Source: Gracilariopsis chorda
Taxonomy: Eukaryota > Rhodophyta > Florideophyceae > Gracilariales > Gracilariaceae
Length of the DNA stretch: 64,000 nt
Assembly (NCBI GenBank): GCA_003194525.1
Contig: NBIV01000067.1
Coordinates: 232,673 to 296,672, forward strand
Reading direction: 5' to 3'
Shown: in pieces, positions 784 to 38,629 of the stretch
How the letters are laid out: each line of letters begins with the position of its first letter
How positions within the stretch are numbered: the first letter of the stretch is position 1
Position numbers and translations under genes: made by a program
Notes under the pieces: generated by a model
What the model saw: the letters and a program-made list of their open reading frames with translations, nothing else
Told to the model about the DNA's origin: nothing
Database searches by the model: none

Positions 784-2600
784 TTAGTGGTTATTTCCCT
801 GGAGTAAGGCTATCAGAGCATCCCGCATCGCGGTGACATCGCCACTGGCCTCGTTACCTCCCAGCCCCACTTGGCGGAGGAACTGAGAGATCAAGGCAGC
901 CTGACCCGCAGGGGCCACGTTCGCCTCACCTGGCGTAGAGGACCCACCAGTGGGAAGACCGACCGACGGATTGGACGGCTAACTCGCAGGGGCGACTCCA
1001 GGAGCATCCATACCATATGGTTCTCCCTCCGCCTCGGCGTGACCGGCACCTTCGTCGGGCTCGTTGTCGAACATCGGATCCTCACCGTCGTAGACGTTGT
1101 AGTACTCCTCGGCGTCAACAAAACCGGTCGGATGCCCCTCGGGGATATATCTCGGTGCAAACCGGAGCTCGTTTGCTTCCTCCGCGGAGATCTCATGCCC
1201 CTCCCAAGGTTTGAAGTAGATGAAGTCACCCGCGAGCGGAGTTCGACGCCCTGGCGACAGGTCCTGTATCCGGCTACCGGCAGTACGCCCACTCTGCTCT
1301 AGAGGAACTGAAGCCCAGTCAACCTGGTCGATGAAATCGAGGAGCCCCGCTACTTCGTCAGCGTTTGCCTCACCACCTAGTGGGATTCGTAAGTCCAGCG
1401 CTCGGATGGCGGCACGGACCCGCAACGGGATAAAACACAGTCTGTACTGGTCATAAACCTCCCAGAGGATGAAAGCCGCTGTGCGGACCGCCCATTCGGT
1501 GACCACCACGGACCAGAGCCCGGACTGAGGATCCTCGATGAGGTATGAGCCGTAATACGTGATCACGGGAGGCAACTCGATGTAGCAACCTCGGCACGCT
1601 TCGAGATGCGACCACCACGGTGGAATCGGAACGTACTGACCCCGTCGGTTGACCACGCGGATGCGTTCGACTTCTACGTTCTGATACGGAATCAAATACG
1701 CGAATCGGGACCGTGCTCGCCGCTCAAAGCGTATCATTGACAAGAAGTTGGCCCTCGCTAAGCGACTCATATAGCGGAATTCAGCCCGAATGATCGGTCG
1801 TGTCCAGCACACCGCGTCTTGGCGCGCTGCGGGAATGCTTCTCCACAAGAGTGGTTCCAAACCCGCGAGGCGGTTGAAATACCCCATTTCACCTTGGGTG
1901 CGATAAAATCCGATGTCGGAGCCCATACCATCGGGGATGGGATACTCAAACGGAGCCCGGCGAAGCCGGTGATGAGCGAGTAAGACCAACGCCGCGTGCG
2001 CGGAAGCTGCTGATTCACGACCACGTCGGATTACCGTGTGCACGGGTATCGCTACGCGATTGCGCCAATCCCACGAAGTGGTCACGATTGCCGGAACGTC
2101 ACCGGGAGCATTCCGTTTCCATCGGTATACATCGCCAGAAGCGCATCATTGAACACCGCAGTTGGGTGGAACCACGGCGCCAGCCGGAGAGTCATCGCAT
2201 GTTGCGAAGGCTGCAGCCCGACCAGCATGTCGTACGAGGGCCATGCTGCCATTAGATACCCTCCCGTGGGAGCCGCACTCGCATTTCCGCCTGTTTGTTG
2301 CGAAGGAGTCGAGAGACCGCTCTGCGGTAGAGGCACGGAATGAAATCCGGAGAAGTACTGTAACGGTATGTTGCTGCCGGCATTGTCGTTGTTGTTGCTG
2401 TTGTTGTTGTTCATCGTAGATGAAGGAAGCCGAGTAATCGAAGAAGAAGGCCGTGAAAGCGTATGTGTTGTTGGAAGAACCTCGGAAGAGTTGGTCGCAG
2501 ATTCGCTGTTCGCAGCTAGGTGCTCGTTACCCAGAGTGGGATGGAGAACCGGCGAGCCGGACTTACATTTAAGGACCTTGCCCGGTGCTTCCGTCGCCAT
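784..2600 (-). pseudogene. Element A: antisense accessory ORF (aORF-A), near-intact
   Basis: Unrecognised protein encoded opposite to gag-pol between pol and the 3' LTR. The ATG is at 2598-2600, only 35 bp from the LTR. The first ~172 codons (Ser/Thr-rich, with an Asn run from an AAC microsatellite near 2388-2410) are followed by a change of reading frame near 2085. The second frame then runs through an in-frame TAG at 979-981 to a TAA at 784-786. Conserved blocks shared with the antisense ORFs of B and F include NRVAIPVHTVIRR, the segment LIEDPQSGLWSVVVTEWAV, ADEVAGLLDFIDQVDW and AMRDALIALL near the C-terminus. No sense-strand gene covers this stretch, so it is not a shadow ORF. Function is unknown. 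Confidence 0.75.
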
Positions 2601-2623: not shown

Positions 2624-2635
2624 AGGAGGGGGATA
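2624..2635 (+). other. Element A: polypurine tract
   Basis: AGGAGGGGGATA sits directly before the TG of the 3' LTR, where plus-strand DNA priming is expected. Element C has a matching TTAGGGGGGGGATA next to its own 3' LTR. Confidence 0.75.
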
Positions 2636-3538
2636 TGAAGTGCAATCCTCAAGGAGGAAGACTCATCGATGCCCTGTGGACTTGGTGTTTTTGCCACTTT
2701 CGCGTGTTTATGATTACTACCGCTACTAGCGGGTGTCTCAGCCCTCAGCGGATCCGCGCTGTGCGCCAGGTGCACACCTGTGCATGCACCGTGTGCCGCC
2801 CAAGGCGTGAGTGGACCACGTGTGACACGGATAGTCAAGAGGAGGTTGGCACCACGGTGTGGACATTTAGTTAAATTATATTTATTATTTATTATTTATC
2901 TACGCTACAGTAGGGAGATTACTACACTATATAGTGGCTCGGCGACCTCGCCCTGACACTGAGTAAACTTTCCCAACCAGGGTTCTTGGCTCTAAGTCTT
3001 TTCCGCTTTCGCGAGTTTTCTACACTACTCGGAGGTAAAGCCGCGTTACTAACGGTAGACCTATCCACCCTGCGTCACTAGGAGTATCACCGCCTTAGGC
3101 ACTTGTCACTTAGTTCACCACCACCGTGTTCTCTCCCCTGTATAGGGTTTCTTTTGTACCTTTTTCCGTGGTCCCGTTGGCCCACACCCCTGTCGCCCCC
3201 AATCGGGCATCCCCCGTACTCCCCTTACCCCACTCTAGTGGTTCCTACCCCTTTGTGTGGTTGCTCGTCACCGCTGACGCGTGTCTCTCGTGCCGGTATC
3301 CCGTGACGTCTTCCCCCACTTACGTGGACTCGTACTCCTTGGAAAGGCTGCTTTCCCATTCGTGGTGATCCTAATCCTACCGTTTCAACTCTCCCCGCTT
3401 GGCGTGAGGGTGAGCCTTGGCTTTACAACCCGACTTCGTCGTGCTCATCCGGAGAGGCTCCGTTCGCTGTGTTACCCTCCAGAGGGGAAGATTCCGAACG
3501 TCTTCGTGTGTTGTCCCGCTTGCGGGTGTTGCACTACA
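2636..3538 (+). repeat. Element A: 3' LTR (about 903 bp)
   Basis: Begins TGAAGTGCAA and ends TTGCACTACA, nearly perfect terminal inverted repeats that match those of the element C LTR (TGTAGTGCAA). An internal stretch (ACACGTG words, then an AT-rich TTTATTATTTATTATTT block at about 2875-2900) aligns with the C LTR, so A and C are related families. The LTR ends inside gene E. The adjacent GAGAA (3539-3543) would be the right copy of the target duplication; the left copy is outside the window. Confidence 0.85.
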
Positions 3539-5994
3539 GAGAATTAGGTTTATTGCGAGTAACACCCTTGTGTTTTCCGCTACGGGCCGTGGGCAGGATG
3601 GGCAGATGGAATGGAACTCGCAGCGAGACCAGACGCAACAGCTTGGGGATTTCAAGCAGCTATCTTTAACAGACACGAAGAAAGTATTTTTCGTTCCGCT
3701 TCATCTCCTTGCTAATTTAGATGATGATCCATACGGTACATCTGAAAATGACAATGGCCTGAAGATGCTAAGCGCTAGGAAAGTGGACAAGGAGGGACAC
3801 TCTGCGGATGCTGTGGCTGATGAACTGTTCAGGATTGTGCTCGCCTTGCGTTTTACACGTCGAGGAGAATCTCAACTTGATTCGGTTCGTCGCTTATTTG
3901 AGGTGCTAACGGAGGATCGTGGGGAGGGCACCACCAACAATTGCACAGTCACTACGGACAGATGCTACGTTAAGGCGTCTTGTATGGAGATATTGACAGA
4001 ATTGGGGTTCAGCTCAGTATGTTTAATGCCCAACCACCTACTCCACGTTCATTCACTTGCTGCTTCTTCGTACCTCAACCCTAGCAGTGGTGATGTCAAG
4101 GAAGGTCAGGAAATGGGCAAGGCGACTGGGAATGTGCTCGCCGTGGATACAAGCGAAAACGGGGATGATGGGATTGCTTCCAACGTTCAATTGGACAGAA
4201 GGCGAGGTTTTGTTGTGATCGAGAACCCACAGCTTGGACCGAAGGCTTTTTTTGCGACGAAAAATATTGGAACCTCCGGTACATGCGTTGTTGCGCAGAA
4301 TAAAACTACTGCAATGGCTGTTTGGTCACAGGGAATGGAGAAGTTTGCGAAGCTTCTGAGGTTTATGTACACTGTTCTCACGTCTTTGCAAGAAAGTTTG
4401 AACTTATGGATAGCTGTTGCTAAGCCAAACTACTCGCTTAACAAAGTTCTTTATACTCGGCGAAGCATTGAAGGAGGGCAAGTCTCCGAGCTGAAGACAA
4501 AACTGGAACAGGTGATTGAAAGTACCTGCGTGCCTCTCACCGTCCGACAAAGATGCGCAGATTGGTTTTTGCTTCGTCAGGGTAGCGTGACGGGCACTAA
4601 CGATGGCTTGAAGCTGCTTAGCAGTGAGACGGCAGAGTCTGCGCTGGGGATTGTTGGTTCGCGTCGGGAGAGCACTTTAGAAGATTGGTTTAAGCTTTCG
4701 TATGACGCACGGTTTTCATCTAAGAGGTCTACGGAGGCTATTATTCGTGGCACAGCGAACGAGGACGCAGTGCTAGCCACATTGCGTGCCCTTCCATTTG
4801 TAGAAAACGTTTTCGAGGCCGGTTGGCTAGCTCAGAAAGACGCCCCCCACCTCGCTTGCTCTCCTGACGGCATAGTGCTCCTCAAGAAGGCTACTTTGCA
4901 TTGTTTCAGTTCTGCTGTTGCTTCTGATGCAGGTCCAGTCCGTAGTTCAGATAACACTTTTGTACTTGGGACAGTTGAGATCAAGACGCGTGTCGCTGTA
5001 TCATTGCTCGGACAGAGCGTCACGGTATCGAAATCGGAACAGGTACTGTGTGAACTTGTAGATGCCCAGTTTCATACCTACTTTCCCGAAGATCACATGG
5101 CTCAGATTTTGCACCATCTTTTGGTGCCTGGCCTCAGCTGTGCTGTTTACGTTGCCGCCACAGAGACTGGTATCCTATAAATCGTTTTGATTATGATTCC
5201 TATGTCATTTCAAATGAATTGCCATGAGACTAATAAGTCTTTAGTTGCACCCTTTGTTGCCTGGGCGTACGAAGAAGATACAGGTATTCTGCCCTTTGTT
5301 TCTACATCACTGCACTCTACAATTACGACACGGCTGGATTTTTGGCGCATGATCTCTGGGCATGTCAGGGTGAATGGTGCATTTTTGCTGCTCAAATTTA
5401 AGCATGCTGCGCAGTCGTTCTACTCTAAAACAAAGGCGGGAGTTGATGGAGCCACACAGCAGAGCACGCTTCTGCACAGCTCTACTTCCCCTTTTAAGTG
5501 GGAACAGAAGAAAATGTCGCAGACTCTCGAAACAATTCCCATCTAAGTTTTCTTTGCCTCGCCCATGTTTGAACGGCAAAATGTTTTGGACTCTGAAGAG
5601 ACTTTTAAGTCTATTGACAACTTCAGAAATCTTATGAACAAGGTTCATGCTACTGCCTATTTTATGTATGATTTGTAAAAAGAGCTTTTATGCTATGCTG
5701 ATTCAGTGGAAGTTAAGGAAGGGCAGGAAGACGTTACCGACAACGAGCCGCTTCCCAAAACAGAAGCTGCAAGGCTAATTGCTATTGCCCAAGCACGATT
5801 ATGAAAACTAATGCTGCTTTTCAATAGTTAAGATGGTGTAGAGGTTCGCTTGAGTATTTCCAGTCATGTTCCGAAGCAAGGAAGAATGTTGTATTGCGCC
5901 ATGTGCGGCCAACACAAGGGCAAATGGAGAGGGCATCGCTATTCCTATTTCTGTCCTATTTGCAACGCTCAGTTGTGTGTAAGGACATACCCAG
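3539..5994 (+). pseudogene. Gene E, first part: composite DDE-like transposase with PD-(D/E)XK (YqaJ-like) nuclease
   Basis: One frame runs from the element A LTR to the element B insertion. The N-terminal part has a conserved FFVPLHLLANLDDDPYGT block and a TDRCY motif that looks like the second acidic position of a DDE fold. A second domain at about 4500-5160 carries the PD-(D/E)XK nuclease signature: RGTANEDAV, CSPDGI and VEIKTR, then a Gln-containing helix. A cysteine-rich tail follows (YCAMCGQ, SYFCPICNAQLCVR, 5862-5990) and resembles the zinc-binding end of piggyBac-type transposases. In-frame stops occur at 5178 (TAA), 5544 (TAA), 5676 (TAA), 5802 (TGA) and 5829 (TAA), with no frameshift. 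The 5' end is cut off by element A. The nuclease call is firm; the DDE call is inferred from motif style. Confidence 0.72.
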
Positions 5995-6560
5995 TCTGGT
6001 ACAGCCAGTGGTGAGCACAACGTTGGTAAAATAGGACTTTTAGATTCGAACTAACAGATGGGTTCCAATAGGTGGTCGTCTCCCTAATATAGAAGCAGCG
6101 ACCAGGGAAATCCTGAAAAGAGATCTGCAAGAACTAAACGGAGAGTGGGTTCTCTGGGCGGACGATAATCCTACAGGCACTGCTAAGGGATACGCTCGGT
6201 ATCGGCTGCTTCGAAAGCACACCTAGATGATGTCGCAATAGTGTAAATGAAGGTGAGTATCACGAGGTTGAACCAGAGGAACTAGAACAAGCCTGGAGGG
6301 TGCTTGGTTTACTTCTCCGGAGGTGGAGCTTCCAGCGGCGCACTATATACAGTGCCGCGAGCTGACCTCGTCGGAAACTCTCTACTGTACCCTATAAAAA
6401 CCTAAGATAGGTTATTCTACCTAATTGGATTACAGTCTGCTAGACCAATTTCTCTGGAGTGGTGTGCCACGTGGCACCAGTTTGAAAATACGAGTTCCCC
6501 GTTAGGAATCTTCCGTAATAGCCCATCCTTAGGAGCATGCATAGTACCCGCTGTACTACA
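5995..6560 (-). repeat. Element B: 3' LTR
   Basis: Aligns along its length with 14927-15495. The outer end reads TCTGGTACAGCC where the other copy has TGTGGTGCAGCC. The inner end is CTGTACTACA, followed by a pyrimidine tract (TACCCCCTTCCTT) that is the polypurine tract on the element strand. Confidence 0.88.
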
Positions 6561-6895: not shown

Positions 6896-8963
6896 ATGAA
6901 TCGTTTCCGTATTATGGAGCGGCCTGCGTCTCCTGCATCCTCCGAGGCGTCACCCGCCTGCATTTATCGACAGATTTGCGATAGTCCCGCGATTCCTGAA
7001 GGAAATGTAAGCGGCGGCACTCTTCTGCAGGTATCTTTCTCCTTTTGTGGTGTGAAAACACAACTTTCTCCTGATTTTCCTGCTTTCCTCTGCTCCTTTG
7101 GAATGTTTCAAGCTTATTATGATCAATCTTCGACTCCCGTGGATCTTCATGTCTATCACCCCTCTACTGGTGCGCCATTCTGGCCTGGGGAGCATCTCGA
7201 TCATCGTGCCACTTGGGTGTTCGTGCTTTTCCAAGATCGGCGGGTCAGCCTACCGTGTTCCGTCGGTGAATACATCCATTATTTCGCGCGATACCTTCAG
7301 GCGGGGCGCTTTGGCACGGTTCCCAAAACTCCCTGGGGTGAGGGCAAACGTAACCGTGAGGATTCGTATCGCGCTCATTGGCTCCACGTTCCGGTGCATG
7401 ACGATAACGCTCCGACAACGGTGGGGTACTGCGATACTCCCTACTCTAGGTGTATCGAAGAACGCGAAATGCAGTCGCGTCTGGAGCTTCTGCTTCAGGA
7501 GGAATCCATTCACCATGCGGAGCGTCATCCTGGCAACATTTCCGTTGGCCGCTCTCCTCTGGCGTTGCTTCTTTATGAACCTCCTTACGATGGTCTCTAT
7601 TTTTTACACCGCAGTAGCTGGGGTACCAAATCTGTGGACGAAACCCGTATCAGGAACACCTTTGGATTCTTCTTCGGATGTAACAACACGTAGTTCCATG
7701 ATACAGTTTCTGGTAAGCGCTCTAAATACTACGTCCCCATCGTCAACTCCTGGAGGGACCATTGGGTGTCGCTTCACCTGAGCGTGCCGACGCCGCTCGT
7801 CTTTTCATATCACACCTCCGAGGTACTCGATACCCACGGCTCCCTGAGAGGTTTCGTTATGTTGATTGCCTCTACGTAGTTCGCTGTGGGGCCCCTTATG
7901 GCGTACTTTCAGGCAGCAGATAAGGGTGTCCTCTCCTGTACGTGGAGCTGCGATAGTCGCCTCTACTGGGACTCGTCATACCACCCTACAAAAGGTCGTT
8001 TACTTCCCCTTTTGGGTGGCCATGATCCAGTATATCTGCTGCTTGGGTGTCCAAAACCTTGGAAAGGGCACCACGTGGAGTGCAGACGAAGCGGGACCTC
8101 TTCTTGATTACAAACTTTAGGTGGACTGGTCTGAAACCCCGGGTTTCCTGTGGTATGACTATGGAGGAGACAAGTTCTACCCCGTCAAGGGAAGTCCGAA
8201 CGGTGACGATGACGAGCGCGCATATGCTGCTTTTCCCTGCCATATTGAGGAGAGGACGCCAAAAGTGCCACGAGTTCAGGTCTCCGATTATGATTCTAAG
8301 GTGGAGAGTCTGTCGATCCGCACGCCAATTCCTTCGCCGGTTGGAGGATTAGCTATAGCTCCTGCAGTTAGCGGTGATACTTCTCCTACTCCTGCGTTTG
8401 TTGCTGCAGCTCCCGTTATTGTCACTCCGGCGTCGGTTTTCGCCGTCCCTGCGGTGGGGATGGATGTTTCTCCCATGAAGATAGAAGCGACCCCTCCTGC
8501 CCCGGTGGGTCCAAGGCCTTTGGTTCTTTGTGCCCTTCCGTCGCCGTCGGCTTTGGTGGCCGGACCTGCTTCTCCTATCCAGACCAGTGCGTCTTCCCCA
8601 ATGGTGGTATCCGCAGCTCCTTTGGTGATTGCTACCGCAGTCGGGTCACCGAAAGGTGCGATGGCAGTCGCCTTTTGGGATTTGGTGCAGGCCTGCATGG
8701 TTGTTGGCGTCAGCACACCAGCTTCTCCCGTTGAGGCGATGCGCGAAGCTCGCGGCTGGGTGCTAAAGCTCTGGAAGGCGGGTACTGATAGCGATTCTCT
8801 GAGGGCGATGCGTGACAGCCTGAAAGAGTTCATCGATAACCAGGCCACTGTGGCAAAGGCGCGCCTGGATGCGAAGTATGCGGTGCGCTTTGGCGGGAAC
8901 CTCTGGGCAGTTGACATAGCTTGTACGGAGCCAGTTGGAAAATTCAAAAAAGTTAGCCCTTAG
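6896..8963 (+). pseudogene. Element B: antisense accessory ORF (aORF-B), decayed
   Basis: Encoded opposite to B gag-pol, tail-to-tail with pol. An ATG at 6896 (or 6914) opens a 265-codon run ending at a TAG (7691-7693). The same frame continues (FHDTVSGKRSKYY, then LVFSYHTSEVLD) through a second TAG at 7877-7879. A shift near 8.0-8.1 kb leads to a frame with a third TAG at 8118, directly before VDWSETPGFLWYDY, and then runs open to 8963. Homology to aORF-F is clear: PPYDGLY vs PPYDGIY, FHD, YHT..LD, and TPGFLWYDY in both. The Ala/Pro/Val-rich centre is a linker. The C-terminal block AMRDSLKEFIDNQ and RLDAKYAVRFGG matches A and F. The three TAGs stand where a homologue has Glu, Glu and Gln. 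Confidence 0.75.
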
Positions 8964-9140
8964 GTGGTACAGCAGTTCAATCTAAGGTTATTGTTAAATT
9001 GTGTTAGTAAGTCCCTACAAGTGCGAAAAGACGCGAAAAGAAACCTGTAAAGTAGTGTGAAAATGTGTGTCTCCTCCTGTAGGTGAGGAAATCAGGGATA
9101 GACCATTTTTGAGCTCTCCCCCTTTCTTGAACGAAAACGC

Positions 9141-12138
9141 CTACGAGTAGTTGCGGTCTCGCTCCAGTGTGGCGAGGTATCGCTTGAGCAAGTCCTCCAG
9201 ATTGTGTTCCTAAGGTTCTTACGTATCACCCGCTGAGCTATAGACGTACCATCTGATGCAGTACTTGATTCCTGAAGGGCTTTGACGGTGCGACACGATG
9301 TGGTCCACTGCACATAGGGTCCCACCCTGGGGCTCCCGGAGTACGTACGGAGTATTTTGAGGAGTGTTGCATAAAGGAGGGGCATCGTCATTCATGGAAG
9401 AGCTAAGTGGATCCGCGGATACTACCTTAGGTGAACGGCACATGGCCGGTCTTGTTGCTGGTGTCGCACGCGGTGGAGAATGTGCGATGACTGGCTGCTG
9501 AGGTCGCTTCCGTGGGAGAGGTTCTGGTACTTTTGTCACCCGGTCTCGTGAGACGACTTCGTGGAGCCCGCTTACTTCGATGGCTATCGTATCCTTATAG
9601 GTAGCGAGGACCTTGTAGGGCCCTACGGTATTTGGCGCCAATTTGCGGGTGACGTCTGGCGGTTCTTCTGACGTCTTCTGGGGTTTTTCGAGGAAAAGTT
9701 CACCCCCTCCCTTCACCTGTGGGCCTTATTTCACCTTCAGGTCGATATCCTGTTTGTATCTCCTTTGAGAGGCAGTCAGCTTAGCCTTCGCAAGCGTGAG
9801 TGCGTTCTCATACTGCCAGACGGATGCCCGTTTTGACTGGGCTGCCGTGTGTCCAACAGTGGCGAGGCTCTCCTTACAGAAAGGGCCCGTGCCCTGCTTC
9901 TTTAAGAACCCCCCCATGGTTTTGGGGAGTACTTCGTTCTCCTCTTCAACTACGGCCATCACCTCGGGAATGCCGGCATGTTTTCCACTGGGGTTATTAC
10001 ATTTCACGAAATCTCCTGCAGGTTTGCTCCTTCCCTCGTGCCACATAGGGTGAGGCCCAGACCGGTGTCCTCCAAGGGGGTTGTATCTTCTCCATCGGTG
10101 GATATACGGGACAGAGCGTCCGCTGCCTGGTGTTTCGAGCCTGTTCGATGGAAGATATCAAACTCGTACTGCAGCAGGCGCAACCTCTGACGTTCTAGGC
10201 GTCCGGTCGCGTCAGTCAAGGACAATATCCAATTCAGTGGAGCATCATCAGTGCTCAAGCTAAAGCGCGTACCCCCCAAGTGGGGGTGCAGTAGTAGTAC
10301 TGCCCACACTATAGCGAGACACTCCCGCTCGGAGGTGGAGTAGTTCCGCTCCGCCTGAGAGAGGCCAGGACTGCATTAAACTATTGGCTTCAGTCCACCT
10401 TCTGATTGTTCCTGTAGGAGAGTGCATCCCACCTGGTACTTACAGGCGGCCGTAGCCAAACCCATGCGTCCGTGCCGTTTCGGTAGAACCAATATCGGAG
10501 CTTCAATCAGTTTCCTCTTCAGGATGTCGAAAGCATCATACTCCTCTTCCGTTAGAGTGCCAGTCTTTGTCGTTTATCTTTCTCCGAAAGGCAGTTCATT
10601 GGGGCCACGATTTGGGAGAAATTAGGGACAAACCTGCGCAAGACGTTGCTAAAACCTAGGAAGGAACGTAGTTCCGTCTGGTCCGTGGGATTTTTGGCTT
10701 CTTTGATGGCGTCTTGAGTCTTGCTTGATACCTGTAGGCGACTACGGAGCACTACTTGTCCCAGGTAGTCCACAGAGGACTTGAAAAAGCACTTCTCTAG
10801 CTTCAGGGTTAGGCCAGCATTTTTCACGAGTTGGAGGACGTGCCTCAAATGCGTGAAGTGCTCCTCCATGGTGCGCGAGTAGATAATGACGACGTCAATG
10901 TATACCAGGGCGTACTGCAACTTCAACTTTGACAGGAGTATGTCAACTGCCCGCTGGAAAGTGCCGGGGGGCGTCTTTCAATCCAAAAGGCATCCTCAAG
11001 AATCTGAATACGCCACAGTGGGTGGTGAACGTTGTCTTGTCCTTACCGGCGTCGTCCATGTCGATTTACTGGTATCCACTATTGGCGTTCAGAGTACAGA
11101 ATACCGATGCATGACTTAAGGAGTCCATAATATCATACATGCGTGGTATCTGGTAGGCATCCCGCATGGTTACCTCATTCAAGCGCCTGTAATCGATAAA
11201 AAACCTCATAGATCCATCTTTCTTCTTGGCGGACACCACTGCGGAGGCCCATTTGATGGTGGAAGGCTCAATCAAGATCTTGTACAACAATCGAGATCGC
11301 GTGTATGGGGATCAACTCTCCTTGGGAGTTGAAGCACCGGTTTTACCTCAGGGGTTAGCTGGATCCGGTGCTTGGTCACGTTCACTTGGCCTAAACGGCC
11401 GGAGCACGTATCCTCCAATGCAGGTGAAAGTTTTATTATCCTTTGGCGATACTTTACGAATTCTTCGCCAATATTAAGCTTCTCCTGCCATGAGGCAGGT
11501 GGTGTCTTCTCAGGAGGCGACGGTGAAGAATCAGTCTTCATTGCGATGAAAGTGTCCTGCACGGCAAGGTATTTCTTTGGCGGGATCTGAGCCAGTTCTC
11601 TAGGAGCGGACAGAGCTATCCCCACTACGGTGCCCTTGTGAATCTCAAATAGAGACTCCTTAGGGTTGGCAATGACAACCCTGAAGGGGATGGTTGGCAC
11701 TATTTCAATGACACAATTCGCCATCATGGAGTGCTTCCTCGTAGTAAGGTGAGGGCTCCCCTGCAAGAAGAACCAGCCTGAGGTGTATGATAGCACTCAG
11801 ACTTCGGCCTGGTTCCTCGCCAGTATCTGAACACTATTCACCAGTCGGAGTTTGTTCGACTGCGTCTCCTTTGGAAGTATACACACGTGACGCGCATATA
11901 CGTCGGGTCCCGGAGATGCAGACACGATACCTACAGTGGCGGCATTATGAAATATCACTTTCCGCAGGCGTGCGTAGATGGCATGCACATACCGGTACAC
12001 AAAAGAAGCCCCCAGTATGCCACGTGCGGCCAAGTTTGTCACCACCAAGAACCACATTCTTACCTTTAAGGATCCGACACGGAGATATAAAGGCAGAGCC
12101 CCGAGAATGTTTAACATTCGCCGCGAGGCATCGCGCAT
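9141..12138 (-). pseudogene. Element B: pol remnant lacking the integrase core
   Basis: Broken into short frames by indels and stops. In order on the - strand: protease-linker block ending near 11797 (RMWFLVVTNLAARGILGASF, close to F); RT start (KKDGSMRFFIDYRRLNEVT, 11066-11290); RT palm and connection (ALVYIDVVIIYSRTMEEHF, 10552-10926, YLDD changed to YIDV); RNase H (10004-10309); linker; then QRRYKQDID and a chromodomain (9141-9716) whose DTWEP Trp codon position is a stop. At about 9847 the text jumps from the linker before the integrase zinc finger (LATVGHT) to the region after the catalytic core, so roughly 830 bp present in F are deleted. It cannot encode an active integrase. Confidence 0.85.
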
Positions 12139-12299
12139 CTTTGGTAGTTTGTCCGTCCTTAAGGATTTCAGGGCGACCTGGGGAACATGTCGACATGTAC
12201 CGGGTTTGGACCGGCGCCTGTGTCCAAGGTGTCACGTGCGGTGGTTGATGCGAGAGGAGAGCATCTTAAGGAGACAAATACTTTATAGTTCTCGCGTCA

Positions 12300-14830
12300 A
12301 AGGGGATATACTGATTCCAAGAAGGTGGTCGATGGGTCCGCTGAAAATGGGGGATCCAGTGATTTCGTTGCGTTTTGGCGTGGGAGGTCCACCAATTCCA
12401 TTGCAACTTGGCACACTGATTCCGCCCCTTTCCTAGAGGTAACTTCCGTTGGACTGAGGCTCGATGGAAGGGAGCCACGCGGAGCCTCTACGCACAGTCC
12501 TGAGGCTTTTCTTAAGTGGAGGGTGTCGGAGCTCCACGAATTGCGTTTGGTTGCAACGGTGCAACTGGGGTCGCAGTGTTCCATTGCGAGGTGATAGGTG
12601 CTGCAGCCGGGGCAGCCGGTCCCTGCGTAAGTGATCCTGGGACAGGTTGAGCGGCTTTCCCCAATGGGGTGCCGTATCCATAACGACATTGAGGGGATCG
12701 GAAATCACCATGAGCTGTATGATAACTATCATTCTCCGAGTAGGTGTCTTTCGCTGCCTGGAAATTCTTCTCTCTCTACTGGAGCATGACTGCCCTCATT
12801 GCCAGGATGAGAGTGGTGCATTGCACCGGCTCTCAGGACAGGCAGATCCTACAAGGTGGTGGGTAACTTCGAGGATCTGCGAAGCGAACGATCCTAAAGG
12901 ATCTCGCTGAGGTTTATGAGGAGGGTGACGACCGTGTCCGTGAACGGGACAGTGCCCCTTGGGGTGACACGAAGCTGAGAGCAAAGACGTCCTGCTCGTG
13001 GTCGATTGTTAGATCGTCCATGTCTCCTGAGGTGCTTGTTTCCAACGTAAAGGCCATAGAAGTGTGATTAATTGAGTCGGAGAGTTTGTCCGAAAGTGGA
13101 GCGTGTGCTTCGCCATGCAGCGCGGTGGGTGTCCCCGTAGGATTCCGCGAATCGCGATAAATCCGTATTGGGGGTCCGAGGATTCGTGGTCAAATGGTTG
13201 CGCACCCTCGCGCGGATCGAAGGGAGGAGTCCCTCGACTAACAGCGACTTTAACCGCCGTTCAGAGTATACGTTTCCGCACCTTAAGGCATTGCTCCAGA
13301 GTGTCTAGGAAAACTCCGTTTTGGTCATTCCCGTGCTTTTTCGGTAGGAGGTGACGTCAACCTCGGCATCCGCAATCGCCTCATCTGTGGCGTACCGTTT
13401 GAGGAGGAAGTTGACCACCTCGGGGTACGTCATCAGGACTTCCGTTCCAGGATCATCCACAAGTGCGCTTTCTCCTGTGAGGTGGGGTTGCAGGAGGGAG
13501 TGCCCCTGCGCAGTTTGGTAGAACTGCAAGCACCACATGGCAGCACCTTCATGCACGCCGTTGGTGTTACACGCAGAAAGCAAGTTTGTAAGGAAGTTCA
13601 GCACTGAAATGGGGTCTTCGCCTGAACAGGTGTATTTATTCATTTGAATATCCATCCGGCGCTGAATCTTCGTAAGTCGCTTAGTGACCGACTTGTCGTA
13701 AAGGTTGGAGCGATTATGCAATCTCTACGTTTCATTATCCACCAACTTGGCGAATAGATCATTGAATGGGACGAACTTCGTGACCCTTGGCCGTTTCTCC
13801 TTCAAAGGTACTTCGTCCTCTGAGTCGGAGCTGTTCTCGGAATCGGAGCCCGTACTACTCCCTGAATCGGGATGTCTTCTATTTCTTCATCTGTCTCTCC
13901 GTTTTCAGCTTCGTCTTTCCTAGGTGGTGTCTGGGGGTCTAACGTGGTCCCCGTTATCGCGATTCACTATCGGAGTATCCTGTCATCCTCTCCGAAGGTG
14001 AATTTTGTCGCGACTCGTAACCTGTCCTCCTCCCTCCGGAGTCAGGTCCAAACGGTTCACAGGAGGATTCCTAGGGCTTCACCGTTTCCTTGCGCGGTAT
14101 CCCGTCCTTCTCCGGCGCGAGGAATGGCAGTATCCTGTCCTCCTTTGCCCGGCGTTCCCTTACGTGTTGATAGAGAAAACCTCTCCTGTACGGAAAATGC
14201 AATTTCAAACGCAGCTAACGGTTGTAGCTGCGTGGTTTGGGAGCAAACCTCCGCTCGGATAGCATCAGAAATCACCTCTAGGAAATCATTCGAATCCAAG
14301 AGAGCATCTGCCGCGTGGTGCGCCCTTTTGATCGCAATTTCCCCCACTAAGGCGTGGTGGGGGGGTCCAAGATGCGCCTCGACATCTGAAGGAATCCATT
14401 CAGCGAGCTTTTGCGAGAAAGTCGGTGAGGCGTGGGGCCATAGACTCGATAAGCGTATCAGGTTCTATCGCGCCCTGGGCCTGGATCTCGTGAGGCGGTG
14501 GCGGTTGTGACGCCGTCTGGGATTCTTCAACTTCCACAGCGGCATTCTCATGAGGCTTGGCTGGTTATCCGCTATCATCGAGTCATGTAGTCTCCTGGGG
14601 CGTTGTCGGAACCGGTCGACACTGGATCCCGCATTCCGTAGGGGGCGTTCAGGATCATCCAGCATGGCGGTAGGTCCTTGACGGACGTTGCACGTGCTGC
14701 GTCCACCCTGGAAGCCCAGTGTCTGAGGAGCCTGGGAGGGAGTTTCCGGGGTTGGTTTTTGAGGGCCCATAGAGGAGTAGGTCGGAGTGATTTGTTTCCA
14801 CTTCCGAATCAGCTTAACCAAGGATTCCAA
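12300..14830 (-). pseudogene. Element B: gag remnant
   Basis: Best block is 13305-13721, with SVLNFLTNLLSACNTNGVHE followed by GAAMWCLQFY and TYPEVVNFLLKRYATDEAI, colinear with F gag (VLRFLSQFRTACDQNGVHEG, YPEVVHYLLETYATDDVI). The N-terminal part is near 14465-14830 and begins MESLVKLIRKWKQ. Several frameshifts and stops separate the pieces. The nucleocapsid end cannot be traced with confidence. Confidence 0.75.
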
Positions 14831-14926: not shown

Positions 14927-15495
14927 TGTGGTGCAGCCAGTGGTGAGCAAAACGTCTGTAAAATAGAAGTTTTACATTTGGCCTAACAAATGGGTTCCAA
15001 TAGGTGATGGTCTCCTTAATATAGGAAATATAGGAGCGGCAACCAGGGCAATCGTGAAAAGAGATCCGCAAGCACCAAACGGAGAGTGGGTTCTCTGGGG
15101 GGACGATAATCCTACAGGCGCTGCTATAGGACGAGCTGGGTATAGGAGGCTTAGAAAACACCTAGAAAATGACGTAATAGTGTGCTTGAAGGTGATTATC
15201 ACGAGGTTGAACCAAACGAGCTAGAACAAGCCTTGAAGGTGCTTGCTTTTCCTGGAGGTGGAGCTTCGAGCTGCGCACTATATACAGTGCCGCGAGCTGA
15301 CATCGTCGGAAACTCTCTACTGTACCCTATAAAAATCTAAGATAGGTTATTCTACCTAATTGGATTACAGTCTGCTAGACCAATTTCTCTGGAGTGGTGT
15401 GCCACGTGGCACCAGTTAGAAAATACGAGTTCTCCGCTAGGAATCTTCCGTAATAGCCCATCCTTAGTAGCATGCATAGTACCCACTCTACAACA
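14927..15495 (-). repeat. Element B: 5' LTR
   Basis: Starts TGTGGTGCAGCC and ends CTCTACAACA on the + strand, and pairs with 5995-6560. A conserved ACTATATACAGTGC and CCCTATAAAAA segment is present in both copies and could hold the promoter. Confidence 0.88.
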
Positions 15496-23179: not shown

Positions 23180-24008
23180 TGTGGTGCAATGCCCCAAAGG
23201 GGAAAAACACCGAAAGACGTTCGGGATCTTCCTCTCACGAGGTGAACCCAGTTGGGTAGAGCCCTCCCAGAGGTGTCACGGCGAAGCCGGTTTGTAAGAC
23301 CAGGGACACCTGTCGCGACTCGCGCAGGGAGGTGAAGGCGAAGAATCGGTATCCGCGTGAGCGGGGGTGTGATCCTCAGTAGAGGTATGTTTCCACGTAA
23401 GTGGGGGTGTGTGAGCGGATGGGCACACGAGGGCCGCGGATAGCGGGAGGTGCTACCCTAAAAAGGGGAAAAAGGAAGGGCGAAGAGGAGGAAGGAAGGA
23501 CGAAGTGGGTCGCGAGAGCGACGAACAGATACGGCAATCCCGGTGGACAGGACTCCCTATACAGGGCGAAACACCAATGCAATTGGAACAATTATGCTCC
23601 CAGTGATGGGTCTCTTTAGATTTGCAAGGGGGTTAGATGTCCCGTGGTTCACGGCGTTTCCCTCCAAGGAGGAGTAGAGTACGCGCGCAAGCGGCAACAA
23701 CTAGAGCCAATTCCCCAGGATGGGGTCCCTTGTTGGGGAAGGTTTACTGGTGCGACGGCAGTGCGCCGTCGCACTAAGTACTAGCTTCCCAGAAATGGGT
23801 GTGAAAATAATAAATAATATTAACTAAAAATACTTCACATTTCCTGGCAACATCCACTACTGTTGCCAACCGCCAAGTGGCCCAAAACCGTGTCCCACGT
23901 GTCCATATCCACCATCGTGGGGCGTAGTTCATATACACACTACACAACCGATAATATCGGGAAAGCGTTCAAGTACCAAGAATCCCTCCCTGAGGGCGTT
24001 GCACTACA
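23180..24008 (-). repeat. Element C: 3' LTR (829 bp)
   Basis: Bounded by TGTGGTGCAA and TTGCACTACA on the + strand. Contains many perfect small hairpins, such as CCGTG-gtt-CACGG (23642-23654), CCTCC-aa-GGAGG (23661-23672) and an 8-bp stem GCGACGGC/GCCGTCGC (23752-23772). Confidence 0.95.
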
Positions 24009-24022
24009 TATCCCCCCCCTAA
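24009..24022 (-). other. Element C: polypurine tract
   Basis: TTAGGGGGGGGATA on the element strand, directly before the 3' LTR. Confidence 0.8.
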
Positions 24023-24264
24023 GACGGGAAAACGACCGCGGACGCGGAGGGTTCCCAGACGAAAATGGGTGATAAAAGCGCGTACGCCGTCTCCGGTTCT
24101 TCTTTCCTGGCATAGCCGGCTATTGTAGTATTGTGTTGTGAGGAGCTAGCTGCTCCCTTGAATAAACTTTGCCGTTTTGAACGTTGATTCTCGTTTGAGT
24201 TCCCTGTCTTCGATGGACCTTGCCTTGTTATCCTTTCCTATCGCTCTCCGTTCGCGCGGCAACG

Positions 24265-27200
24265 TTACCCAACTTGGGCATTTACCAGCGTGGCTGGAGC
24301 TGCAGTTCCCGTTTGACGGTGGTATCGCACGACCTGCGACCGTGGGAGGTGTTCGATTGGCTCCCACGTATCCCCACTGGGGTCATACCCGTACCAGCGG
24401 ACGCGGTATTGTAGAATACCATCCTGTTCCCAGGTGTGTCCGACAAGTCGGTCTACTACGAACTCTCGTTCGTAGACCTGCCGGCCGTGCCGGGTGGTGG
24501 TTGTACTTCCTTGCGGGGGCTGCCCGCTGTGCGGTATAATGTCCCTTAGCAGGGTGTTCGGCGATAACTCCGGCGTTGCCGTGCGCTGTGATAGTGACCG
24601 CTGCTCATGCGGGAAGATATCCCTCAAGAGGGTGTGTGGTGCCACGGTTTTCACCGGCAAGTCATTCCCAATTGGGGCAGGTTCATTTCTGCTTTCGTGG
24701 TATTGCGGGCGAGCCGCCAGTCGGCGGAGGACTTGGGCTCCGCCTTCGCGGTTGAGCTCACGAACCGCGAGTTTGCGGGAAGATGACCGCTCCCGCGGGA
24801 TCGGCATTTCCACAATCCCCTGGGGGGTCCCGTGCGACACGGTGATTGGGTGGCGAACCGCCTCCCTGCCAGGCGCACGAGCGCTCTGAACCATACGTTC
24901 CGGCGATGCCGTGGTGTCCCCGGCTACTGACGGGTTGCCTGGGGCTAACTCCGGTACATCGGTATTTTGGTCAAAATTCCCCTTTGGGGGGTGCCGGTGA
25001 GGTGCCGATGACACCCTTTTCAGGGGAATTGCCGCTAAGCGCAGTGCACCATCTCCATGAGGAGGAGCAGCGTCCGGTACGACCGGTTTCGAGCGTGCGA
25101 TGGCGCGCGTTATTCCCGAGTTCCTCGGTTCTTCGCCGCACCGATGCGGGGGTTGGCGCAAATTATTCCCCGTAGCGGGGGCTTCGATTTCGTCAACGAG
25201 GGGAGGCGTTTCCGGTGCTTGCGAGCCAGGGCTTAAAGCTTCGACTGCGGCTTGGCTTCCTTTTTCCCCAAGAGGGGTGTGGGTATTTCCCTGTGAGGCC
25301 GGCGTATCTGGGCGCCCCTTCTCCGCAAGGCGCGGGTCTGATCGACCTGATTGAACCGCTTCCGCGGGGACTTCCGCCAACGGCGGCTTCGAGGCATCGG
25401 GCGATTGCCTTTCCGATGCTGCGGTATTGGAGTGAGGCTTCTCGTTTTCCCGTGACAAACGGTGTACTTGCCGCTTTTGCGGGGCCTGCGCGTCTGGTTC
25501 CTGTTGCACAGCACTGCCCGGGAACGGGGGATTAGTGTCGCGTGACATACTCCGTGCTCCACGGTCAGTGTTCCGTATGTTACGGTGTGTTTCCCGTTGC
25601 GACGGCGATATTGTTCCTCGAAGATGAGTGTTCTCCTCCCCCTCCTTAGACGGAGCGGCGGGATAAAGGATAAAATTCCCCGCCTGGCGGGTATAGATGC
25701 GCGCCAGTGGGGCAGACGTGGTAGGGGCGGGCGCTGCGGGGCCCGAATTACCCGGCTGAGCCGGTGAGTCCGACAGAGTCGGTAGGTCTGAGAGTCCCCG
25801 GTTGGGGTGTGGTAGTACCGTAGGTCTAGTACTCCCGGATGGTTCCGGTGTTGCAGAGTCCGTAGAAACGGGGTTGCCTGGATCCAGGACTACCTCTGAC
25901 GAGGGAGGAGGGGCAAGGACAACACGATCACGGGAAATCCGTTCGTGCGTGTCGCCCATCTCTACCACGACTGTGTCCGTGTTAACAGAGATGACCTGGA
26001 ATGGTCCATCCGCCACAGGCGAGAGTTTATGGCGCTTCTCCCGTTCCGGGTTGTAGTACTCCTTCCTGATGAAGACGTAGTTATTCGCCCGAATCGGGGA
26101 CGGTTTCCCTCGCAAGCGAGCATCAAAATCCCGCTTGTAAGCGGCTTGGGCCCGTGCCATAGACTTCCGCGCAGCGGGGACCAGCTTGGAAAGCCATTGC
26201 TTCCATTGCTGCCGGTAGATAACCACAGATGGGAAATGGTCCAAGGTAGCTTGGGGTTCCAGCGCCACAGGCGGAGGTGTTCTAGATAGAACCAACTCGA
26301 ATGGCGAAACTCCGGTAGTCCGGTGTACCTGCGTATTGTACGCGTAGGTTACCGCATCATAGTAGAGATCCCAATTTGTTGGGTGGTCAGCGACGTAGGA
26401 ACGTAGCCCCGCGAGTAACGTCCGGTTAAACCGTTCAACTTGCCCATTACATTGGGGGTGGTAGGTAGTTGTGAACAAGTTCTTGACATCCAGGATGCGA
26501 CAAACATCCTGGAAGAACTTGCTCACGAACTGTTTCCCGTTATCGGAGAGCACCTCCACAGGGGGACCGTAGACAAAAATCCAGTGCGTCACCAGAGCCT
26601 GGGCCACCGTTAGAGCGGTTATCCTCCGAAGAGGGACAGTCCGTACCAGCTTAGAAAAGCGGTCGGTAATGACAAGTACAAACTTGTTTCCACGTTTCGT
26701 GGTGAGTAATGGTCCGAGGATATCGATCGCGATAAACTCGAGCGGCGCCCTTGCGGGGAATAGTTTCATCTTCTTCGCATATTTGCGGAGCTTGACGCGA
26801 TTCTTCGCGAATTCGCTACAAAACCGCACAGTTGCGTAGCAATCCACCACCATTGCGGGCCAATAGAAATCCCTTCGCAGGGTTAGGTAGAGTTTCCTCC
26901 CACCTGGGTGACCTCCAATCGGGGCGTAGTGTGATAGATGTAACACCCGCGATTGCAGGGAATGTGGTACCACAATCTTTGGGCGGGCTTCGACGTTTCT
27001 TACGAGGTAGCCTTTGTCGTTTACCCCGAAAGGGAGATCTTCACCACCGTTGATACGGGCACGAATTCTCGTACAGAATGGGTCGCCGAATTGTTCTCGG
27101 ATCATTTCTTCCGGTGATACCGGTACAAAGCTTCCCGGTAACGGGTTCTCAGATTTATCTCGCGATGCGAGTAGTTCGTCAAAATCAGCATCCTCGTCCC

Positions 27201-27630
27201 AGTTTTCTGGCCTAGCCTCGACGGCATATTCCGGATAATCCGGGTCTATAGCCATGAAACATGGGACTTCATCATCCTCCGTTTGGAGTGCTTCCCCACT
27301 TGTGGGTAACCGCGACAAAGCGTCGGCCTGGGTGTTCTGTGCACCCTTTTTATAAATGACTTGAAAGTCATATTCCGCGAGGCGGAGTCTCCATCGCATG
27401 AGGCGTCCAGACGGGTCGGAGATATTCATCAACCACCTCAATGAGGAATGATGCGTGTACACGGTGAAGTGAATTCCCATAAGGTAGGGGCGCAGCGTGT
27501 TCATCGCCCATACGACGGCGAGGCACTCTTTCTCCGATACGGAGTAGTTCCGCTCATGAACATTGAGCGAGCGCGACCAAATAACCAATTGGATGTCGTT
27601 CCCCCTCGGGGGTGGTTTGAAAAAGAGCAC
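24265..27630 (-). CDS. Element C: pol second frame - RNase H, integrase, chromodomain
   Basis: Begins inside RNase H (WSRSLNVHERNYSVSEKECL) and runs 1121 codons. The integrase zinc region has both His (LSHYAPIGGHPGGRK), but the Cys pair reads C-S-E-F where F has C-A-S-C, so one zinc ligand is lost. The catalytic core has D, D, E (AIDILGPL, LSDNGKQF, GQVERFNR). A ~500-residue Pro/Ser/Arg-rich tail precedes the chromodomain (EFVVDRLVGHTWEQDGILQ, YRVRWYGYDPSGDTWEP). It is separated from the first pol frame by an apparent 1-nt insertion in an AAA run at 27579-27581; removing one base would restore RNase H continuity. Confidence 0.9.
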   Translation of the reverse strand: MLFFKPPPRGNDIQLVIWSRSLNVHERNYSVSEKECLAVVWAMNTLRPYLMGIHFTVYTHHSSLRWLMNISDPSGRLMRWRLRLAEYDFQVIYKKGAQNTQADALSRLPTSGEALQTEDDEVPCFMAIDPDYPEYAVEARPENWDEDADFDELLASRDKSENPLPGSFVPVSPEEMIREQFGDPFCTRIRARINGGEDLPFGVNDKGYLVRNVEARPKIVVPHSLQSRVLHLSHYAPIGGHPGGRKLYLTLRRDFYWPAMVVDCYATVRFCSEFAKNRVKLRKYAKKMKLFPARAPLEFIAIDILGPLLTTKRGNKFVLVITDRFSKLVRTVPLRRITALTVAQALVTHWIFVYGPPVEVLSDNGKQFVSKFFQDVCRILDVKNLFTTTYHPQCNGQVERFNRTLLAGLRSYVADHPTNWDLYYDAVTYAYNTQVHRTTGVSPFELVLSRTPPPVALEPQATLDHFPSVVIYRQQWKQWLSKLVPAARKSMARAQAAYKRDFDARLRGKPSPIRANNYVFIRKEYYNPEREKRHKLSPVADGPFQVISVNTDTVVVEMGDTHERISRDRVVLAPPPSSEVVLDPGNPVSTDSATPEPSGSTRPTVLPHPNRGLSDLPTLSDSPAQPGNSGPAAPAPTTSAPLARIYTRQAGNFILYPAAPSKEGEENTHLRGTISPSQRETHRNIRNTDRGARSMSRDTNPPFPGSAVQQEPDAQAPQKRQVHRLSRENEKPHSNTAASERQSPDASKPPLAEVPAEAVQSGRSDPRLAEKGRPDTPASQGNTHTPLGEKGSQAAVEALSPGSQAPETPPLVDEIEAPATGNNLRQPPHRCGEEPRNSGITRAIARSKPVVPDAAPPHGDGALRLAAIPLKRVSSAPHRHPPKGNFDQNTDVPELAPGNPSVAGDTTASPERMVQSARAPGREAVRHPITVSHGTPQGIVEMPIPRERSSSRKLAVRELNREGGAQVLRRLAARPQYHESRNEPAPIGNDLPVKTVAPHTLLRDIFPHEQRSLSQRTATPELSPNTLLRDIIPHSGQPPQGSTTTTRHGRQVYEREFVVDRLVGHTWEQDGILQYRVRWYGYDPSGDTWEPIEHLPRSQVVRYHRQTGTAAPATLVNAQVG

Positions 27631-29847
27631 ACCCGACTTGGTAGCCGCTCGAGTCCGTATCTACGGAGTATGGCAACCCAAGTTTTGGGAGATGTAGGAT
27701 TGGTGCTGATGTGACAGCCTCCTTTAAGGAGTTGAAAGCTTCCGATTGCTCGGGCGTAAATGTTCCCAGTTTTGGGGGGTTCCCCTTTCGCAACAACGCA
27801 TTCAGGGGCGCCACAGTATCCGAAAAGTTCGGGATAAACCGTCGATAGACGTTGACCAGCCCCAGAAAGGAGCGCAGTTCCATTTGAGTACGGGGTTCTT
27901 TCGCCTCAACGAGGGATTTGACTCGAGCTTTCTCGATCGCTAACCGTCCAGGACGGATAATGCGACCCAGATACTTCACAGTATCTGTGTAAAACTCGCA
28001 TTTACTCAACTTGAGGGTAATTCCCGCATCGCGGAGTACGGTCAGCACGTCTCGGACGTGAGTGAGATGGTCGTCCAACCAGTTGGAGAAGATGATAATA
28101 TCATCAAGGTAGACCAGACAACTCCGCCACTTAAAGCGGTTGAGTAGAATATCTACTGCACGCTGAAAGGTGGCGGGGGCGTTGGTTAACCCAAATGGCA
28201 TCCGCTTGAAGCGGTACGTTCCTGCATGGCAGGTGAATGCGGTTTTGTCGCGATCCTCCTGTCTGACAGGTACTTGCCAATATCCCCAATTGGCATCAAG
28301 GGCCGTGAACACGGTGGCGTCTCCAAGGGAGTCAATGCACTCGTCCATACGAGGGATGGGGTACGTGTCCCTAACAGTCACGGCATTGAGCCGGCGGTAG
28401 TCGACACAGAACCTCCAGGTTCCGTCGGCCTTTAAAGCCAGTACAACTGGGGATGCCCAGAGTGATTGAGCGGGCTCAATCACACCTGCGCGGAGCATCT
28501 TGTCCACCTGGGACTGCTCCTCTTCCCGAGCTTTCGGACCTGCCCTGTAAGGGGGTTGTGCAACCGGTCGCGCACCGGGGATTAAATCGATCCGGTGTTC
28601 CGTTGCATTAATCTCGCCAAGCGAGCCATCCCACATTGTGGTGAATTCCCGTAACATAGTACGGAGTTTGTCGCGGTGCGACTCTGGCACGTGGCTGAAG
28701 TCCAGCGCTTCAAGTGCTTTTTCCGGATCAATCCGGTCATTGCTCGATGGAGCATTGTCCTGTGGAACAGGTGTGGTTCGCAATTCCGAGTTACTCGGTA
28801 TGTTCGGCGCTGAAGTAGCGGTTTCCTCCCCCTCCTTAGACTTGACGTCTTCGGACGGTGGGGCGAACTCCTCAGAAGAGGTGGTAACTCCGAGTACATC
28901 GGCGGCTGTCATCTTTGTTGGCAGCATTCCCATAGGATGGGGGGTTACACTCCCAATTACTTGGTGTTTGACCAGATACTGGGGGTGTTTGCCAAGGTTG
29001 GCAACCAATATCCGGAAAGGGACATCCGGGGAAATGGAGACAATTCCATTAGCCAGCGCCAGCTGGCATTTCTCGTACAACGAGGCGAGGGGTTGTATAA
29101 CCCGAAGACCGTGTTGACGGGAATTTACCTGCACCCAGACTTGGGACTCAGCCGGTATAGAAACCGAGGCAGCGACGCGGAGCTTGGTGGACTCGCGGGA
29201 CGCGGGCGGTGGTTCCTGCGCAGCAGGGAGCGGAACTTGTTTCCGAGAGGACCGCTTTAGCGGGCGGCGAAGAATCGGAACCGACGATCCGTCGTCAAGT
29301 TCTACACGCCTGAGGCGGGGCCTGATTGCGTCGACAAATCTGTCGCAGTAATCACATCCCAGTATGACTGGTGCTGCCAATGAATGGCAAACGATGAAGT
29401 CCAACTTCACCACAGAGGTACCAAGTCTCACGACGAGGTCCACTGTGCCCACCGTTTGTAACTGATTGTTGTTCGTATCCGAAATGTCGGGGACCGCGTC
29501 AGAGCGGATACGCGACCGCACAAGCGGGGGTAACAATGATTCCACAACGAAGTTGGGGCCTGCACCTGTATCCAGGACAGTGAGAAACCTCACCATAAAC
29601 TGGGGATCAAGGCCAAGGTCGGCATAGACCTTATAATTGCGTTTGGCCAAGACCAAGACTCTACCAGGAATCCGGGGATTTTTACTCCGTATCCACGGGC
29701 GACGCAACACACCAAGGTGCGCAGAGTCCGCGTCAGCGGTGTCTTTCCTCGAGAGGACTTTCACCGGGGAGCGAGGCGAGGACGCCTCGGGCGCCAACAG
29801 CCTCGTTCTTGAGGACGCCTTTCCCAAAGGGGAGACTCCCTCAGTTA
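27554..29847 (-). CDS. Element C: pol first frame - aspartic protease, reverse transcriptase, start of RNase H
   Basis: Reads in the -1 frame relative to gag and is open through the gag stop. Protease motif LDTGAGPNFV; RT motifs ALDANWGYWQVP and LVYLDDIIIFSN with the YLDD catalytic pair; connection (LRSFLGLVNVYRRFIPNFS); RNase H start VDTDSSGYQVGCALFQ. It ends where a 1-nt shift moves RNase H into the next frame (27579-27581). Probably not independently active as it stands, unless the extra base is a sequencing error. Confidence 0.9.
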
Positions 29848-32019: not shown

Positions 32020-32103
32020 GAGAAAATACCGTTACGACGGGAAACGATCACGGAACTTCCGGTAAATAAAAAACAAACCTCGTAAAGAGGGAAAACAAAA
32101 ACC

Positions 32104-32123
32104 GATTCTAGGTCGGGAGACCA
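32104..32123 (-). other. Element C: primer binding site
   Basis: On the element strand TGGTCTCCCGACCTAGAATC begins three bases after the 5' LTR and would pair with a tRNA 3' end ending in ACCA. Identical to the PBS of F. I cannot name the tRNA. Confidence 0.85.
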
Positions 32124-32126
32124 CTT

Positions 32127-33649: not shown

Positions 33650-33854
33650 TGTAACACTGAAGGCAGCCTACAAGCCCAGTCACGCCTGAACACCGTAATC
33701 GGCTTGTAGCTGTCATGTTCACAGACAGTAGCAAGCTTGTAGCGTAGTCATTGAAGTATCTAGCCTGCTACAAGATCTGTAAAAAAATGAGCGTCAGCTG
33801 ACCTTCTCCTTCATTTGGAGAAGATTAGAATCCATTCACCATCACTACGTTACA
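33650..33854 (+). repeat. Element D: 5' LTR (205 bp)
   Basis: Includes a hairpin CTTCTCC-TTCATTT-GGAGAAG towards its 3' end and a degenerate TATA-like TGTAAAAAAATG (TGTATAAAATG in the other copy). The PBS begins TGGTAGAATCTGC at 33857. Confidence 0.9.
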
Positions 33855-33929
33855 CTTGGTAGAATCTGCATTTCGATCCCCTCGCGTCCGCATTTTTCAG
33901 TCCCGTTACGACCACGATGCCCCCCGCAA

Positions 33930-38628: not shown

Positions 38629-38629
38629 G

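Follow-up and report, generated by a model that had tools for sequence, protein, structure and literature searches.

The window, a stretch of 64,000 nucleotides from the red alga Gracilariopsis chorda, contained three LTR retrotransposons (elements A, B and F) that carried a coding frame on the strand opposite gag-pol, each at the place given by the initial annotation. Element A encoded gag and pol on the + strand, with the 3′ end of pol (1-528, +), including a chromodomain (Pfam Chromo, E 2.5e-6), inside the window, while its remaining gag-pol sequence and its 5′ LTR lay upstream (locus L048). Its antisense gene (784-2600, -) was followed by the 3′ LTR (2635-3538, +), which was 97.2% identical to the 5′ LTR over 904 columns (25 mismatches), and a 587-aa open frame (3417-5180, +) adjoined the element. 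The antisense product was of a 607-aa type, interrupted in this copy by one frameshift near 2103-2106, with residues 1-168 encoded by 2600-2103, residues 168-607 by 2106-787 and the stop codon at 784-786; intact sister frames of 603-615 aa were found at loci L002, L003, L005, L007 and L008. Element B was decayed: its 3′ LTR (5997-6560, -) and other LTR (14929-15495) were 86.7% identical, its gag-pol survived in pieces (9105-13787, -; pol 9105-12302, gag 13107-13787), and the frame of its antisense gene (6896-8963, +), of a B type related to that of F, was broken. Element F had a 5′ LTR (53095-53575, +), open gag and pol frames (53681-60219, +; gag 53681-55855, pol 55957-60219) with a chromodomain in pol, and a 3′ LTR running from 63574 to the end of the window, which was also the end of the contig. 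Both LTRs were seen for A, B and F, and the antisense frame lay between pol and the 3′ LTR, the arrangement of an aORF-3R.

The antisense gene of F (61044-63246, -) adjoined the contig end, and its frame in the window copy (61044-62965, -) was broken. Twelve full-length F copies were fetched, the window copy included, and 9 of them had a 735-aa frame, whose first ATG corresponded to about window position 63246. Against locus L045, the antisense gene of the window copy showed 27 indel events besides 2 mismatches, and 4263 columns of pol had 0 indels; since the indels fell in the gene, beside the contig end, and spared pol, the broken frames are probably assembly errors. The indels clustered in the final 4 kb before the contig end (window 61044-64000).

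A and F were chromovirus-like Ty3/Gypsy elements, with Gag, RT, RNase H, integrase and a chromodomain at the C terminus of pol between their LTRs, and tblastn found similar pol ends in other families. A third, diverged LTR element (33649-38833; repeats 33649-33854 and 38629-38833) had a pol 27% identical to that of F over 337 columns, and a search of this element for an antisense gene match found none.

The position of the gene had been described as constant, tail-to-tail with pol and close to the 3′ LTR. The first part held for A, B and F; closeness to the LTR held in A, where 34 bp separated the ATG (2600) from the LTR (from 2635), and in the A2 subfamily (about 55 bp), but not in B or F, where the gap was about 330 bp. 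With only 34-55 bp between ATG and LTR, an antisense transcript of A and A2 would likely start inside the 3′ LTR. Possible polyadenylation signals (AATAAA) followed the antisense stops of A (670-675, -) and F (61008-61013, -). Such a signal lay 26-108 nt past the stop in A, A2, F and the 774-aa type (chance 0.062 per 250 nt), which suggests that the antisense gene may have its own transcription unit there; it was absent behind the stops of B, 755 and 630.

Spread and conservation of the antisense gene

The initial annotation had described the protein family from A, B and F. Homology proved real, and the family was larger: in the genome searched (91.3 Mb in 1081 contigs), Ty3/Gypsy chromodomain elements of at least 11 subfamilies had a homologous gene, antisense and encoding roughly 580-770 aa, tail-to-tail behind pol. 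A search with protein P0001, in which the best 111 of 1593 candidates were scored, gave 62 places at 86-100% identity (A1) and 49 at 60-62% (A2), and the matched stretch was free of in-frame stops, counted by eye, at 31 of the 62 A1 and 48 of the 49 A2 places. P0012 as query added A3, A4 (643-aa frames), A5 (583-aa frames) and others; F DNA matched at least 12 full-length places at 97-100% identity and at least 4 at 82-83% (F2); and the B protein gave at least 147 matches, including frames of 774, 755/630 and 708 aa and others, of which 755 and 630 formed one subfamily (99% DNA identity over 1834 bp of the gene). All of these place counts are lower bounds, since scoring covered the best candidates only. 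Many intact frames existed in the genome, and the gene was present in most copies and conserved as protein, the C subfamily (below) being the exception.

The tail-to-tail arrangement recurred at 29 of 29 loci (8 A1, 11 F, 4 F2 and 6 A3) and at the single loci read of A2, A4, A5, 774, 755, 630 and 708. Among 12 B-related loci, 10 had no pol match in the short flank; one of the other two was tail-to-tail, and the second had pol on the far side of the gene, where the match is perhaps to a neighbouring element. Separate searches returned five, two and five further homologous proteins outside the genome. An Agarophyton chilense protein (P0007) was related to the antisense family, and P0012, an annotated protein of 565 aa named Gracilariopsis chorda, matched six genome places at 97-99%. 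Four of its matches (C336, C305, C6 and C1) consisted of two blocks with about 66-70 bp between them. Both blocks sat in a single open frame (626-639 aa), so the intron that the annotation implies may be an artefact. Database protein P0011, in which a bacterial DnaA N-terminus was joined to an F-type antisense protein, probably comes from a chimeric contig.

Profiles of the A-type and F-type proteins aligned over 203 columns with a probability of 98.4% (hhalign, E 5.7e-15), and P0001 matched four F-type loci at E 7e-7 to 1e-10 (tblastn, in a database of only five loci). Pol identities of 45.9% (A-F), 37.9% (A-B) and 50.3% (F-B) agreed with the earlier view that the three copies are not one recent duplication. 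Between F and F2 the dN/dS was 0.11-0.14 at a dS of about 0.5, calculated on partial F2 frames (open stretches of 516 and 402 aa), and the differences at codon positions 1, 2 and 3 numbered 37, 47 and 147; the other five frames of the same DNA gave ratios of 0.25-2.2 and many stops, and no sense-strand frame explained the pattern. A and A2 gave 0.16-0.18 (about 0.17) with dS saturated, and pol of the same pair gave 0.14. Pairs inside one subfamily had few differences and ratios from 0.43 to above 1. The profile homology and the low dN/dS between subfamilies, far below 1, argue that the gene is an old and functional part of these elements, in line with the initial proposal of a real, selected accessory gene. 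We are nearly certain that it is an ancient accessory gene of a red-algal chromovirus group, lying past the end of pol and ahead of the 3′ LTR on the strand that does not encode gag-pol. LTR elements are known to capture genes, and a captured host gene or passenger might lie antisense by chance, unused by the element; with at least 11 subfamilies keeping the gene at one place and in one orientation at a dN/dS of 0.11-0.17, and with no terminal inverted repeats around it in the element copies compared, we consider this extremely improbable.

That the protein has no recognisable domain, as judged earlier by eye, was borne out. Pfam searches at E 10 with 12 aligned A4 members and 5 genomic proteins found no DNA-binding domain and no match except DUF6220 (E 0.16, below its cut-off), and a PDB sequence search with the antisense proteins found no match. 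Structure prediction of the A-type protein, recommended by the initial annotation, gave a confident core (about 85-455) with disordered ends (mean pLDDT 65, pTM 0.62), and this model had no fold match in PDB or BFVD. The proteins looked soluble, their pI ranging from 5.2 to 8.8. Several had clusters of basic residues, the 774 and 755 types ended in a basic tail, and hydrophobicity revealed no clear transmembrane stretch (maximum 19-residue mean 1.70).

A derivative without the gene

Element C (23180-32955, -; pol 24265-29827) was A2-like and lacked the antisense gene. Its LTRs (23180-24008 and 32127-32955) were 99.76% identical, its pol was 77.7% identical to that of A2, and the tree joined it to A2 (97/97) within the A group (99/100). 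C matched A2 through the 3′ LTR and the first antisense codons and then jumped to just past the antisense stop; the remnant start codon and first codons (24065-24100, +) ended at the deletion junction, where the two blocks overlapped by 9 bp (24092-24100). The junction was identical in the window copy and all five further copies read, and a 1321-bp query across it gave collinear matches in 40 of the 40 scored, at 93-97% identity (1096 candidates at first look). Identity between C and A2 (24092-27477 versus L041) swung from 73 to 96% in alternating blocks along pol, and this unevenness suggests that the two have probably recombined.

Since element C multiplied without the gene, its sequence indicates that the gene is dispensable in cis. 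Gene-bearing A2 copies were present in the same genome, and C may receive the gene product from A2 in trans or may have no need of it at all, the sequence fitting both. The loss of just the antisense gene, followed by multiplication, would also suit a brake, whereby copy number is held down by the antisense RNA or its protein product and C has escaped that control by mutation; antisense RNA can form dsRNA, a point discussed in excerpts of PMC7264820. Such a brake is hard to square with the numerous gene-bearing A2 copies, nearly all of them open (48/49), and with selection on the protein sequence and not on RNA alone, and we regard it as distinctly unlikely.

Dyad words along the elements

All 13 element stretches tested that carried the antisense gene, or were derived from carriers, were dense in dyad CC...GG words, and the class of word tracked the clade of the protein (z 4.8-31 over the 13 stretches). 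Elements A, A2, A3, A4, A5 and C contained perfect inverted repeats with 4-bp arms, 3-5 bp between them and CC mostly at the outer end, with 405 observed versus 138 expected in A, 277 versus 80 in A2 and 444 versus 122 in C, the densest array. The class was CCTNNAGG in B and 708, CCWNWGG and CCTNNAGG in F and F2, and CCGNNCGG in 774, 755 and 630, the classes overlapping partly, as other classes were also weakly over-represented in B and F (z about 3). F held 118 CCWNWGG words, against 15-23 expected under two shuffle models, and its words were spread alike over LTR, gag, pol, antisense gene and gaps. Neither the third LTR element (33649-38833) nor three other window stretches had an excess of the four classes, except for a weak inverted-repeat excess at 38900-53000 (z 2.6), and four copia loci had none (z at most 1.8). 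Copia elements (RVT_2) occupied at least 150 scored places among 2239 candidates in the genome, many with 1345-aa frames. The excess survived synonymous-codon shuffling in all 13 coding stretches of the elements (z 4.0-18.1); under the same shuffle, the hairpin class in three other window frames gave one z of 2.8 and two of about 0. Family-specific short motifs were enriched in the elements, as in VANC-type systems.

Perfect 4-bp arms exceeded chance 2.8- to 3.7-fold, in contrast to G-U wobble arms (1.1-fold, like A-C arms), and this lack of G-U enrichment suggests that the word is a unit of DNA rather than RNA. At CC N8 GG sites, the two inner pairs were both complementary 44 times out of 107 in A and 75 times out of 159 in C, an excess that was gone at longer spacings in A, and mispaired near-sites were hardly enriched in the A class. 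Words were kept from A2 to C at 88/140 versus 11/28 controls (reverse 88/133 versus 11/34) and from F to F2 at 33/47 versus 38/79 (reverse 33/40 versus 38/83). Hairpin positions turned over between A and A2 (kept 14/62 versus 3/24 controls; reverse 14/68 versus 3/16), and double changes that restored pairing were in weak excess (103/228 versus 19/50 controls). Tentatively, word centres in A2 (L041) and C had preferred spacings of roughly 20 and 42 bp, near the length of two and four DNA turns.

The words might carry no signal and be a mutational by-product, for example of RT template switching that perfects near-palindromes. An A class set by perfect pairing and not by fixed letters, with near-perfect arms hardly enriched, is in keeping with such a process, but the outer CC...GG preference evident in the CC N8 GG pairing of A and C, the fixed-letter words of F and 774/755/630 and the lack of words in four copia loci of the same genome all fit it poorly. 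Words were also retained above matched controls at moderate divergence, and on balance we think a by-product unlikely. Word class tracked the pol phylogeny as well, so common descent alone could give the match between class and protein, and the link between word class and antisense protein is correlative.

Possible role and comparison with known systems

By analogy with VANC, we propose, with a probability of roughly 0.4, that the antisense gene product is a trans-acting, sequence-specific nuclear factor that recognises its own element family. The antisense transcript would begin in or near the 3′ LTR, and the protein, soluble and roughly 580-770 aa long, is predicted to have a conserved core flanked by disordered ends. 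In the nucleus, this protein would bind DNA bearing the dyad CC...GG words of its family, whose arrays span LTR, gag and pol and extend over the antisense gene, and there it might counter host silencing or boost transcription of the element, on the model of the VANC proteins of Arabidopsis VANDAL. Because such a protein would work in trans, C could live without the gene, depending on the protein of others while retaining the words. Trans action is favoured by C itself, with no gene and LTRs at 99.76% identity, by the 40 of 40 junction matches and by the A2 gene copies in the genome; the density of the words, the match of class to clade, the survival of codon shuffling and the retention above controls favour the words as target. 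Against a trans-acting factor, Pfam found no DNA-binding domain and the predicted fold had no match, the inner arm bases of the A class vary freely yet pair, unlike a usual protein-DNA site, mispaired near-sites have hardly any enrichment, hairpin positions turn over between A and A2, C does without the gene in cis, and 755/630, B and A5 each lack one or another supporting mark. We also put forward, as a tentative possibility, a two-part self-recognition in which the antisense protein family and a matching, element-wide perfect-dyad code (paired 4-bp arms with a 3-5-bp centre, CCWNWGG, CCTNNAGG or CCGNNCGG) diverged together; gene-less cheaters would survive because they keep the code.

A general replication accessory, helping for example to import the pre-integration complex into the nucleus, export RNA or assemble particles, would leave the words to a separate cause. 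Reviews have proposed such a role for plant antisense ORFs on the strength of the nuclear Grande GENE23 (excerpts of PMC7264820). Selection on the antisense gene as strong as on pol would suit it, and C could likewise be supplied in trans, but the presence of words in every gene-linked lineage and in no other tested stretch would go unexplained, as would the match of word class to protein clade, and we hold this role to be somewhat doubtful.

No function is known to us for the antisense genes that LTR retrotransposons carry. A single genome here combines such a gene under strong selection, a derivative that lost it by natural deletion and multiplies, and family-specific words, and with the protein, a natural knock-out and a candidate target together, the function of such a gene becomes directly testable. 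Genes of this kind were already known; the literature searched appears to contain no description of this protein family, of its occurrence in red-algal chromoviruses, of the derivative lacking the gene or of the words. In density, shortness and occurrence through coding DNA the words recall HIP1, the highly iterated palindrome of cyanobacteria. HIP1 is spread over the whole cellular genome, whereas the red-algal words are confined to certain retrotransposons and differ by family.

The initial annotation had drawn an analogy with the antisense genes of complex retroviruses, where HBZ of HTLV is a bZIP protein and ASP of HIV a membrane protein. The likeness is one of position, both having a coding frame antisense to the element and near its 3′ LTR, and goes no further: the red-algal protein has no Pfam bZIP domain or clear transmembrane stretch, and hosts and elements are unrelated. 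An antisense promoter in the 3′ LTR is described for HTLV in excerpts of PMC7264820. Nearer precedents come from plants and fungi, whose LTR retrotransposons include some with antisense ORFs; in plants these are known between pol and the 3′ LTR (PMC7264820 and PMC11963269, in excerpt). The aORF-3R of Retand resembles the red-algal gene in place, orientation, presence in most copies, unassigned function and wide spread in its lineage, according to the same excerpts. Retand, however, is a non-chromovirus, and its antisense product contains TRP28 (PF04195), a domain with 0 matches in the genome searched here and no match in the antisense products. Element-wide dyad words and a gene-less derivative, as seen in the red-algal elements, are not mentioned for plant aORFs in the excerpted text of PMC7264820 and PMC11963269. 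A brown alga has chromodomain elements and an opposite-strand accessory gene (PMC12477816, in excerpt), but that gene sits in a DNA transposon and is not the same as the red-algal chromovirus gene.

For the proposed mode of action, the closest likeness is to VANC of Arabidopsis VANDAL, a set of related trans-acting anti-silencing proteins in which each element family is rich in its own motif (excerpts of PMC10398659). Both systems have related proteins in related elements and a family-specific short motif, sequence-specific action being proposed for the red alga; the likeness is drawn from that description rather than from sequence comparison, and anti-silencing here is putative. VANDALs are Mutator-like DNA transposons and the red-algal carriers LTR retrotransposons. 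As described in excerpts of PMC10398659, VANC motifs lie in noncoding tandem repeats, in contrast to the dispersed red-algal words, which include coding sequence. Should the words prove to be what the protein recognises, a retrotransposon would be capable of embedding a recognition code throughout the sequence that encodes its proteins.
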